Assembly (NCBI GenBank): GCA_013203475.1
Contig: JABMNV010000067.1
Coordinates: 1-32,116 of the forward strand
DNA from: Acidobacteriota bacterium
GTDB lineage: Bacteria; Acidobacteriota; Vicinamibacteria; Vicinamibacterales; SCN-69-37
Direction of reading: 5' to 3'
DNA length: 32,116 nucleotides
Made by a program: the position numbers and the translations under genes. Below are positions 17,583-32,116 of this stretch, one piece after another; position 1 is the stretch's first letter, and the number at the start of each line of letters is the position of its first letter. The notes under the pieces are model-generated. The model ran no database searches. It was not told where the DNA came from and saw nothing but the letters and a program-made list of their open reading frames with translations.

Positions 17583-18416
17583 TCAGACGACGTCTGGCAC
17601 GTCGGCGATTCGATCCGGTTCGATGACACGTTCGACGGCCTGATTGCCGACGCGGCTCACGTAGTACACCTTAGCGTCGGCCCTGGTCGACACCACGCGC
17701 GTGACCTCGTTGTCTTCGAAGTAGATACCGGCGTCGTTGTCGCAGGCGTACCCGGGTTTCATCTCACCGGACCCAATCAGTTTCTGATACAGCGGGCGGC
17801 GTCCCGGCTCACGGTCGTAATGCGGGCTGTGACTCCCCTTGAGGAACCCCAGGCAGTGCACGGTTGACAGTTCCTTCGGCCTGGAATCGGTCGTGCCTTC
17901 TTCGAACCAGCACAGCGATCCCGCACTGGCTCCACCGAGGACAATGCCGCGATCCCACGCTTGCCGGAGCACGAGGTCGATTCCCTGTGCCTTCCAGATT
18001 GCCTGTTGATTCAAGGTATTGCCTCCCGAGACGACGATGCCGTCCACCGAGAGAAAGACCTCTTCCCAGCTGCGGCTCTGCTGCGTGCTGGCAATGAAGC
18101 TCTCCTGCACGGACGGCTCGACGTCGAGCGGGGCACAGTTGCGATACCAGCTGATGATGCCGTTCGGCGAGTCAGCGGACGCTGTCGGCAAGTAACAGAG
18201 TTTCGGGCGTGGCTTGCCGGTGAGTTCGGCCATGTAGCGGAGGAAACTGGTGCCGAATCCGCCGCCTGCAATCAAGATTTTCCGCATACTTCTCGCGCTC
18301 CCTGTTTGAGGTGTGACTCGGTCTGACGCCAGCGCCTCGACGACATCAGTCAGGCGACTGGCGGCCACGCTGGCTGCGCCGATCGCGGTGGTGGCAATGA
18401 ACGCTCGTCGTTCCAT
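17583..18416 (-). CDS. Peptidase E-like (S51 family) with twin-arginine signal
   Basis: A 277-residue peptidase of the dipeptidase E/cyanophycinase family. The N-terminus MERRAFIATTAIGAAS is a likely twin-arginine signal (RR at 3-4, then a hydrophobic stretch), so the protein is probably exported. The catalytic domain starts at RKILIAGGGFGTSF (45-58); the nucleophile is S164 in LGGASAGSLCWF and a likely catalytic histidine is H199 in HSPHYDRE. The classical PepE is cytoplasmic and cleaves Asp-X dipeptides, so the signal is notable. A start at the methionine at position 44 would give a cytoplasmic enzyme without the signal; the twin-arginine opening argues for the longer form. Confidence 0.9.
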   Translation of the reverse strand: MERRAFIATTAIGAASVAASRLTDVVEALASDRVTPQTGSARSMRKILIAGGGFGTSFLRYMAELTGKPRPKLCYLPTASADSPNGIISWYRNCAPLDVEPSVQESFIASTQQSRSWEEVFLSVDGIVVSGGNTLNQQAIWKAQGIDLVLRQAWDRGIVLGGASAGSLCWFEEGTTDSRPKELSTVHCLGFLKGSHSPHYDREPGRRPLYQKLIGSGEMKPGYACDNDAGIYFEDNEVTRVVSTRADAKVYYVSRVGNQAVERVIEPDRIADVPDVV

Positions 18417-28293: not shown

Positions 28294-29592
28294 CTACGCG
28301 CCGCAACACTTCTTGAATTTTTTTCCGCTCCCGCACGGGCACGGATCATTGCGTCCCGCCTGCTGCATCGCCGCATCCCGCTCTCCGGCCGCCACCCAGG
28401 CCATCACGTGGGCGGGCGCGCGTTTGTGCTGCAACTCATTCGCCATGAAACGCATGTGGGGATCGATGTGATGGAACAGTCGCTTGTAGGCCGCGCACAG
28501 GTAGTTCAGATCGCGACTGCCGTCTCGCGACGTCACGAATCGGTGCTTCGGACACTCACCGTGACACGCGAATCGGACGTCGCATTCCCGGCATTCGATC
28601 GGCAACGAATCCCGCTTCGCGTCACCAAAGGCCTCTTGCTGAGGCGACTCCACGAGCGTCGCCAGCGATGCAGTCATCAGGTTGCCAAGTCGATGCTGAG
28701 GATAGACAAAGTGGTCGCATGAGTAGACGTCGCCATTGTGCTCAAGCGCCAGCGCCTTTCCACACGTTTCACGAAAGACACAGAGCGAGGCTTCCAGCCC
28801 GGACCACGACTCAAGGGCCACATCAAAGTGCTGCACGAACACCTTGCCCACATCGTGGTGCACCCACTCATCAAAGACCGCCACCAGAAATTCGCCGTAC
28901 GCGGCCGGATCAACCGACCAGGGCGTGACCTGCGCGCGAATCCGTGCGCCTGGCTCGACCAGTGACAACTCGGCGTCTGTCGGCACTTCGGCTGTTCGCT
29001 CGACGACGGGAATGAACTGCATGTATCCGCTGCCGATCTCCCGGAGGAATCGATAAATCTCGAGCGCGTGATCCACATTGCCCGCACTCACCACGGTCAA
29101 CGTGTTGAACTCCACCTGATGCCGCACCAGTAGATCGCGCGCGCGCATGACCGCGCCAAATGTCGGCTTCCCTCCTCGATCGCGTCGATAGAGATCGTGC
29201 ACATGCGCCGGGCCATCAATGGAGAGCCCGACCAGGAATTTGTGCGCGGCCAGAAACTGACACCAGGACTCGTCGATCAGAATGCCATTCGTCTGAAGCG
29301 CGTTGTCGATTCGGCGTCCATCCGCGTATTTGCTCTGCAGCGCCACGACCCGTTCGAAGAACTCCACGCCCAGCAGCGTCGGTTCGCCACCCTGCCAGGC
29401 AAACGACACGACCGGGTGCTCACCATGGGCCTCGATGTGCTGACGCACAAACGATTCGAGCACATCGTCTTTCATCGCGAAGTTCGACGTGTCTGGATAG
29501 AGGCGTTCCTTCTCGAGATAAAAGCAATACTCGCAGTCGAGATTGCAGATCGGCCCGGACGGCTTGGCCATGACATGGAAGGGTTCGGGCAT
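28294..29592 (-). CDS. Radical SAM sulfatase-maturase-like enzyme with SEC-C tail
   Basis: A 432-residue enzyme of the anaerobic sulfatase maturase (anSME) family. The radical SAM cluster motif C16-x3-C20-x2-C23 lies in [13 protein letters not shown]-terminal SPASM region holds many cysteines ([34 protein letters not shown]) for two further iron-sulfur clusters. The last 20 residues form a SEC-C zinc-binding motif, [16 protein letters not shown]. anSMEs oxidise a Cys or Ser of sulfatases to formylglycine, but no sulfatase gene is present here, so another target protein is possible. The ATG at 29592 starts [13 protein letters not shown], the usual family opening; a second ATG at 29607 would add five residues. 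Confidence 0.92.
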
Positions 29593-29653
29593 CTCACCGC
29601 CGATCATAGCGCGGGCGTATACTCAGGAAGTCGCGAAATTGTCAGAAGAGCTC

Positions 29654-29658
29654 AGGAG
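29654..29658 (+). promoter_or_regulatory. Ribosome binding site AGGAG
   Basis: AGGAG six bases before the ATG at 29665 fixes the start of the nfeD-like gene. The open frame continues upstream to 29197, but that part is the antisense of the maturase gene. Confidence 0.75.
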
Positions 29659-29664
29659 TTGTCC

Positions 29665-30021
29665 ATGAGAGCTTTCACGCACTCGGCGCTTGTCGGTCTA
29701 CTCGTTTCGGGTTTGAGTATCGGCCTGGGTGCGGCCCTGACGTTAGGTGCGCAGGCCGCCATTCCCGAACAACCGCTGGTCTTCACGGCAGAGGTGGATG
29801 CGATCATTCATCCGGTCTCTGCCGAGTACATGATTCAGACGATGGATGCGGCGGATGCTGCCGGGGCCGCGCTCGTGGTCTTCACGCTGCGGACACCGGG
29901 CGGACTGGTCGACTCTACACGAGACATCATTACGCGCATGCTGGCCGCAAAGACGCCCGTGGTCATCAAGGACCGCGCCCGCCACGCCTCCAATAGCCAC
30001 CTGAACGGCGGCGCGGCCTAA
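29665..30021 (+). pseudogene. Truncated nfeD/ClpP-class membrane protease gene
   Basis: The first ~100 residues are a signal sequence (LVGLLVSGLSIGLGAALTLG) and the N-terminal part of an NfeD1-type serine protease domain: VDAIIHPVSAEYMIQ, ALVVFTLRTPGGLVDST and MLAAKTPVV. Complete family members have over 400 residues, with the catalytic serine in a later ARAASAGFF-like motif, then membrane helices and an NfeD beta-barrel. All of this is missing. After base ~29964 the frame runs for 18 codons into the antisense of a permease gene and stops at 30021. The promoter side and ribosome binding site are intact, so a short product may still be made, but it cannot be an active protease. Confidence 0.8.
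29962..29970. other. Rearrangement junction between two truncated genes
   Basis: The nfeD-like homology (plus strand) stops at ~29964 and the ADOP permease homology (minus strand) stops at ~29968. Two convergent genes thus lose their 3' ends at the same point, with at most about four bases between them. No target duplication or insertion-sequence end is visible at the join. It is either a deletion or inversion end point or an assembly join. Confidence 0.7.
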
Positions 30022-31998
30022 GATCGTTCGCACCACGCGAAAGGGGCTGGCTCCCAGTGCCATGCGTACGCCAATTTCCCGTGTGCGCCGCGTGACAATC
30101 AACGACATCATCGCGTAGACGCCGGCCAGGGCGAGCACCAGCATGACGGCGCCGATGCCGAGCAGGGCCGCAGAAAACCACTTGAAGAAGTCGCGGTCTT
30201 CATGGGCCACCTCCTCCAGGAACTCGAAGCGGTTGAAGACGAACGCGGGATCACGATCGAGCAGGGCCAGACGGAGAGCGCTGATACACGTCAACGGATC
30301 TCCGGTCGTCCGCACGGCAAGATACGCGGCGTTCGTCTCCGGTGACAAGGGCACGTAGAAGCCGGCCGCCATCGACTCATCACCAACGCTCAAGCCCAGG
30401 TCCGGCACCACGCCGATCACTTCGCGCCACGGCCCTTCTTCGTCTTGGATTGAAACGCGGACACGCTGGCCGAGCGGAGACGCGTGGCCGAAGAATGTCC
30501 TGGCAAACGGTTCGTTGACCACGGCGACCGGACGCGCCTGGTCGAGAAAATCGACGGACGTGAACACCCGACCACTCAGGAGGCTGGCGTCAAGCGCGGC
30601 GAAATAGCCTTGTGAGACCTCCACCTTCGGAGCCAGACGGGGAGCCGCCGCCTGGGCGTCGCCAAGGGCTTCCACCTGCACAGGCACGCCGCGCGGACTG
30701 TGACGAGGCAGGGCCGTCCCGATTCCTGCGGCCATCACACCGGGTATCTCGGCAATCATACGCTCGACGTCGAATGCCGTGACCGGCTGCGGTCGACCAC
30801 CCTCAGCGGTCGGTCGGACCGCGTTGATGTTGAGATAGGACGTCAGGACATTGCGTCGCAGGTCGAGGGAGGCGCCCGTGAACTTCTGAAATCCCTGGGC
30901 CACCACCAGCGCCCCATGAATCATCACGATAGACACAGCGATCTGAGTGACCACCATGACGCCGGCGATGCGGCCACACCTGATATCCCCCGCACGACCG
31001 CCGCCATGTTCCAGACGTCCGGCCAGATCGGCCCGAGTTGCGCGCAACGCCGGCCACACGCCCGCGATCCCCGCCGCGACGACGGCAGAAATCACGACGA
31101 GCAGTATCGTGCGGGGCCCTCCGGCGAAGTTCACCCAGAACGTAATCTCGTCCGCACCGTTGAACAGACGGAGCACGGCCCTGGCGGCTATCGTTCCCAC
31201 AGGCGCGGCGACCGCGGCAATCAAGAGAACCTCAAGAAACACTTGAGTCACCAGGCGACCACGCGACGCACCCAGAGCGGCGCGCAACGCGAACTCTCTC
31301 GACCGCGCGAACGAACTCGCAAGAATCAGAGTGCCGACGTTCGCAGCGATGACCAGCAGAATCGCGACCACGACGACGACGGACACGAGAGACAGATCGC
31401 GGCCCATGGGCCCGAGGTCGGTAAAGACCGTCGCAGTCAGACGCAAGGTCCCCTCGCCAGCAGAGCCCGGTTCAAAACTCGATGCGATGGTGGTTAACTG
31501 CTTCTGTAGGGATGCAAGCGAAGCCCCTGGGGCGAGAGTGCCGAGCAAACGCATGTCTGAGTCTGGTCGCCTGCGCCCGGCCAGAAAGCCCTCGTCTACC
31601 GCCACCCAGAAATCCGGCGAATTCGGAAACTTCACGCCATCTGGCACCACACCGACCACCTCGTGTCGGACACCCCCGATGTCGACCGCTGAGCCGACGA
31701 TGTCGTTGGGAGCGTCCATGACGCCGCTCCAAAAGCCCTCTCGAACAAGCGTGACCGCTGCTGCCCCTGCGGTGACATCGGACGGAGCGAACGGTCGACC
31801 GGCGAGCAGAGTGTGCGGCACAAACCGCCAAGTGGATGGCGTCATGCCTCCCACGGTGATGGTCGCAACCTGCCCGGTCGGAAGAACCACATTCTCGCGG
31901 CCCCCGGTGATGCCGCCCAAGTGCTCAAGGAGCGATCCGGTCGTGGCCAGCGCCAGATAGTCGTCCGGTGTCAGGGCCGCAGGTGTGCCGGCAGGCTC
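29968..31998 (-). pseudogene. ABC-type permease of the acidobacterial duplicated orphan (ADOP) kind, truncated at both ends
   Basis: About 677 codons of a MacB/FtsX-like permease without a partner ATPase. Two repeats are seen. The first has a periplasmic part, then FtsX helices (VVVVAILLVIAANVGTLILA, REFALRAALGASRGRLV). The second has GVMVVTQIAVSIVMIHGALV, a second periplasmic part, then LLGIGAVMLVLALAGVYAMM and TREIGVRMALGASPFRVV. The protein begins inside the first periplasmic domain (PAALTPDDYLALA), directly after an in-frame TAG at 31999-32001, so the first membrane helix and about 70 residues are missing. At the other end it is cut at GGVAGAVL; the frame then continues 76 codons through the antisense of the nfeD-like gene to 29743. 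The substrate is unknown. It is probably non-functional. Confidence 0.83.
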
Positions 31999-32012
31999 CT
32001 AGTACTACTTTG

Positions 32013-32116
32013 TCAGTTTCTCAGCTCAACTTCTTTCAGTTGAAGCATCCACTTGAGATAGTACGGCTGCGTCATAAAGAAATGCGCGGTCAGGACCTCT
32101 TGAATGATGGCGCGGA
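32013..32116 (-). CDS. C-terminal end of an unidentified protein, possibly a transposase (partial)
   Basis: A minus-strand frame enters from beyond the right edge and ends with TGA at 32013-32015. The visible 33 residues include TAHFFMTQPYYLKWMLQ and end KEVELRN. The codons use more A and T than the rest of the window. I do not recognise the family. The stop lies only about 12 bases from where the permease homology breaks off, and the break is at a CTAG (31999-32002). A transposase gene ending close to an insertion-sequence tip would look like this, for example in an IS701-type element, which prefers CTAG targets. This is inference; a foreign gene fragment is also possible. Confidence 0.5.
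   Translation of the reverse strand, partial: RAIIQEVLTAHFFMTQPYYLKWMLQLKEVELRN

Follow-up and report, generated by a model that had tools for sequence, protein, structure and literature searches.

Genes and junction at the right end of the contig

The DNA analyzed (the window, 32,116 bp) is the entire contig C23 of genome G000, a MAG of 264 contigs with a completeness of 95.8% and a contamination of 3.5%. The nfeD region at its right end was compared at base level with G005, a genome of the same genus, and with G002, G018, G019, G030 and G033; the permease region was compared at base level with G005. The following features were found:

28294-29607, minus strand: intact gene for an anaerobic sulfatase maturase of the radical-SAM type, oriented divergently to the nfeD stub (TIGR03942, 502 bits; 76% identity to G005), serving as divergence control
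29665-29967, plus strand: first 101 codons of a stomatin-partner protease gene of NfeD1b type, left as a 5' stub, 71-72% identical in amino acids to the 439-aa G005 gene
29743-29967, minus strand: spurious extension of the permease frame by about 74 codons into nfeD antisense, stop at 29743
29967-29968, no strand: junction, a flush join of nfeD (plus) to permease (minus) with 0-1 bp shared, from the base-level comparison with relatives
29968-30021, plus strand: spurious extension of the nfeD frame by 17 codons into permease antisense, followed by TAA at 30019-30021
29968-31999, minus strand: fragment of an ADOP-type permease gene corresponding to residues 146-824 of the 881-aa G005 orthologue, 677 open codons, assigned by homology and domains
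32000-32016, plus strand: 17-bp terminal inverted repeat of an IS701-family element, TAGTACTACTTTGTCAG, a 17-mer present at six G000 contig ends
32000-32116, no strand: right end (117 bp) of the IS701-family element, matching the IS end on C240 at 100% identity and the complete G064 element at 81%

The nfeD stub starts with ATG at 29665, and the identity to G005 covers the first 97-101 residues (E=3.5e-37, far above chance); identity to the corresponding residues of G002 was 71%. Only profile positions 2-63 of the 189 of PF25145 (NfeD1b_N) were matched, and the 29 bits obtained fall short of the gathering score of 40. The 439-aa G005 orthologue has the NfeD1b_N protease, NfeD membrane and NfeD C-terminal domains, whereas the stub holds no more than the beginning of the protease domain, with neither the membrane domain nor the C-terminal NfeD (OB-fold) domain. 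Since an NfeD1b member carries all three domains, the stub is a remnant and not a member of that group.

In 22 of the 23 other genomes that carry the gene, full-length nfeD is followed by a slipin gene, the remaining one being cut by its own contig end. No slipin (Band_7/SPFH) gene lies immediately downstream of the stub in G000, no slipin orthologue was found in this genome (the best SPFH match had 37% identity), and the rest of nfeD (residues 98-439) was not found elsewhere in it. The nfeD and slipin genes were also not found in four of the six congeners (G001, G003, G004 and G006), nor in most of the family, indicating that loss is tolerated and that the pair is dispensable here. Despite its absence from these four congeners the pair is widely retained in the order, and operon linkage of NfeD and stomatin has been described for archaea and bacteria (PMC10153343).

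The permease fragment aligned with the G005 orthologue over 679 residues with 75% amino acid identity (E=0). Two stretches each of MacB_PCD and FtsX were detected in both proteins, the window fragment being cut at both ends; the G005 orthologue itself scored 478 bits against TIGR03434, below the NCBI cut-off of 622. ADOP family permeases are numerous in Acidobacteriota. The 3' part of the gene (residues 825-881) was not found elsewhere in G000. The 5' end is missing as well, a loss overlooked in the preliminary description: an IS701-family element cuts the gene at about 32000 (codon 145/146), and residues 3-146 are encoded at C185:15347-15781, with C185 ending 92 bp further on.

In the base-level alignment with the six relatives, nfeD homology on the plus strand stops at the ATC codon 29965-29967, and permease homology on the minus strand, in the alignment with G005, reaches the Leu codon 29968-29970 and ends there. 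The BLASTN limits were concordant, the nfeD matches stopping at 29957-29967 and the permease match covering 29969-32000 with 73% DNA identity. The switch in homology, which the preliminary description had placed within about four bases (29964-29968), could thus be narrowed to the boundary between 29967 and 29968. Its statement that both genes lose their 3' ends there and that each frame continues into the antisense of the other also held, the run-ons being of 17 and about 74 codons. The join lies 2.15 kb from the contig end. No repeat spans it, which, with 0-1 bp shared, ruled out a repeat- or homology-mediated join; no IS sequence was found at the boundary, the IS701 copy being 2.03 kb off, and a hairpin test revealed no unusual fold (z=0.68).

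The IS701-family element and the contig end

The IS701 transposase gene ends on the minus strand of the window, with its stop codon at 32013-32015, and the contig halts inside the element. The 17-mer TAGTACTACTTTGTCAG occurs six times in G000, each time 39-134 bp from a contig end, and the contigs broken in this way are C23, C59, C92, C131, C185 and C240. Four of these are left ends and two are right ends, indicating at least four copies. A complete relative of 1430 bp with both inverted repeats is present in G064, and its transposase matched NF033540 (IS701) with 354 bits (cut-off 150) and PF13546 with 218 bits. The G064 element, an IS701/DDE_5 transposase between terminal inverted repeats, is therefore an IS701 element as defined, and the window holds only the matching end. 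The stop of the contig at 32116 is accounted for by the multicopy nature of this IS.

Contigs C185 and C23 both run into TAGTACTACTTTGTCAG, the opposite end of this element lying on C185, and together they fit the G005 permease gene with almost no gap at the IS point (7893 / 7899). They are thus the two sides of one IS insertion and can be ordered side by side. The IS cut in the permease and the join at 29968 are independent of each other.

Origin of the join

In G005 the intact nfeD (439 aa) and permease (881 aa) genes lie on separate contigs (C267 and C165) with different neighbours, and the right end of C267 does not continue into C165. None of the relatives examined had the nfeD-permease arrangement or the short proteins, carriers having the full-length gene, and in none were nfeD and the permease convergent and close; relatives sharing this arrangement had been named beforehand as an argument against recent truncation. 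G000 and G005 have different genes next to nfeD, the radical-SAM gene and the permease, indicating that gene order is fluid.

Several further observations concern this neighbourhood. A peptidase S51 gene (17583-18416) has 82% DNA identity to its G005 counterpart. In the window it is located to the left of the nfeD stub, at a distance of 11 kb, and in G005 to the right of nfeD-slipin, at about 3 kb, so that the neighbourhood is the same but the order different. A second copy of the radical-SAM sulfatase maturase gene (G000:C13:13310-13918) lies beside a sulfatase gene, as in G005, and breaks off after residue 210, inside the contig; by eye, the DNA that follows resembles what we take to be the start of an IS30-type transposase, and this downstream part of C13, when scanned against Pfam, gave no match. 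In G005 the permease 3' end is flanked by a gene that, by inspection, is presumably TonB-dependent-receptor-like; its counterpart in G000, 85% identical, is on C77 (2560-2660 of the C77 stretch examined). A different gene follows this counterpart, indicating that the permease has moved. The permease and about 360 bp upstream of it seem to be mobile as one unit.

Taken from the sequence, the join probably arose, in this organism or in the strain sampled, by a recent repeat-independent (illegitimate) rearrangement, in its simplest form a deletion between convergent genes that left two pseudogenes. In such an event nfeD would have been broken at codon 101 and joined to the permease at codon 824, the slipin gene would have been lost together with the 3' portions of both genes, and the join would have been made by end joining or illegitimate recombination. 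The same permease copy was interrupted separately, at codon 145/146, by the IS701-family insertion. The existence of the join in the cell, deletion over other rearrangements and the mechanism of joining are what we infer from the data that follow.

Since no sequence is shared at the join, it is not a repeat collapsed by the assembler, and the assembly must have had reads across it. The divergence from G005 at third positions was 0.526 for the nfeD stub, 0.520 for the permease on C23, 0.511 for the permease on C185 and 0.531 for the radical-SAM gene; these equal values (0.51-0.53) on both sides of the join and in the controls suggest that both sides belong to one lineage. As a deletion predicts, the bin contains neither the slipin gene nor the 3' part of nfeD or of the ADOP gene. 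No second allele of the junction region was found in the G000 bin, and a plasmid search with the contig tail gave no match.

The missing segments are thus absent from G000 and no reciprocal join was seen there, within the limits set by the 95.8% completeness and by the loss of half of rpoB. Contig C237 ends within rpoB and no second PF00562 match was found in the bin, so that the rpoB 3' half is missing; the absence of other sequence from the bin is consequently weak evidence. The rpoB gene is split across two contigs in both G004 and G005 and cut at the end of C237 in G000, and no PF00562 match was found in G001 or G006; rpoB may be a conserved region at which assemblies of this genus break.

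A chimeric assembly join is a possible but less probable origin. Both genes would then be intact in the cell, a chimeric read or library molecule having linked two dead-ending contigs whose continuations were left unbinned. The closeness of the join to the contig end and the absence of sequence decay in both the nfeD stub and the permease fragment speak against a real event and for a chimera in so fragmented a MAG, as does the incompleteness of the bin, from which essential sequence (at least the rpoB 3' half) is missing; it also speaks against a deletion that none of the relatives has the two genes convergent and close. Short-read metagenome assemblers are known to produce chimeric contigs, and in a mock community about 22 per genome were counted for MEGAHIT and 2.6 for SPAdes, figures that refer to between-genome joins and to assemblers that may not be the one used for this MAG (PMC11261854). 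On the other hand, a graph-based join needs common k-mers or spanning reads, and no k-mers are common to the two sides. A chimera would further require that a 95.8%-complete bin had missed two independent continuations, that of nfeD with slipin and that of the permease, and the visible failures of this assembly, at the six IS ends and at rpoB, are stops and not joins.

An inversion or translocation with breakpoints in nfeD and the permease, its reciprocal join lying on an unbinned contig, is highly unlikely. Facing genes that both lose their 3' ends have the orientation that an inversion gives, and gene order in the genus is fluid, but the reciprocal join would hold the nfeD 3' and permease 3' parts and neither was found in the bin. 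An adjacent deletion mediated by the IS701 copy can be dismissed: this copy lies in the same permease gene, 2.03 kb away, but the IS would have remained at the join.

The preliminary description had put forward a deletion or inversion end point or a chimeric join. Of these, the breakpoint gained in weight, as it lies between loci that are separate and intact in G005. Neither 3' half, whose occurrence elsewhere in the genome had been proposed as a check, was found in G000, and by this deletion is favoured over inversion, the reciprocal join of the latter being expected to exist. The nature of the join had also been said to matter for everything to its right, but little depends on it, since only 2.03 kb of permease and the 117-bp IS701 end lie there.

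Consequences and comparison with known systems

If the rearrangement is real, neither remnant should function, judging from what each still encodes: the nfeD stub because most of the protease domain, both later domains and the partner gene are gone, and the permease remnant because its start (through IS701) and its last 57 residues are gone. For annotation, the 274-aa frame at 29197-30021 and the 725-aa frame at 29743-31920 should not be entered as proteins. A real join would also mean loss of nfeD-slipin in one more member of a genus that mostly lacks the pair. There is a slim chance that the nfeD break exemplifies a recurrent and perhaps selected loss of an nfeD-slipin membrane-quality module in the genus, the neighbourhood being a rearrangement hot spot.

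By sequence the stub is the N-terminus of an NfeD/STOPP (stomatin operon partner protein) of the NfeD1b subtype, the gene that precedes slipin in the relatives, but it keeps 101 of about 439 codons and differs from these proteins in lacking most of the protease domain, the membrane and OB-fold domains and the slipin neighbour. The permease gene has its intact orthologue in G005, whose 881-aa product contains duplicated MacB_PCD and FtsX domains, and the closest known family is that of the ADOP duplicated permeases (TIGR03434, MacB/FtsX type); compared with the G005 product, the window fragment is without the last 57 residues, owing to the join, and the first ~145, owing to the IS insertion. 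The IS701-family insertion sequence, of which the window has the right end only, agrees with the complete 1430-bp G064 element in its terminal inverted repeats and in the C-terminus of its transposase. The junction, if present in the cell, has nothing distinctive when set beside ordinary homology-free deletion joints that form pseudogenes, which are likewise flush and repeat-free and cost two genes. Whether pseudogene pair or assembly error, it is an event of an ordinary kind.
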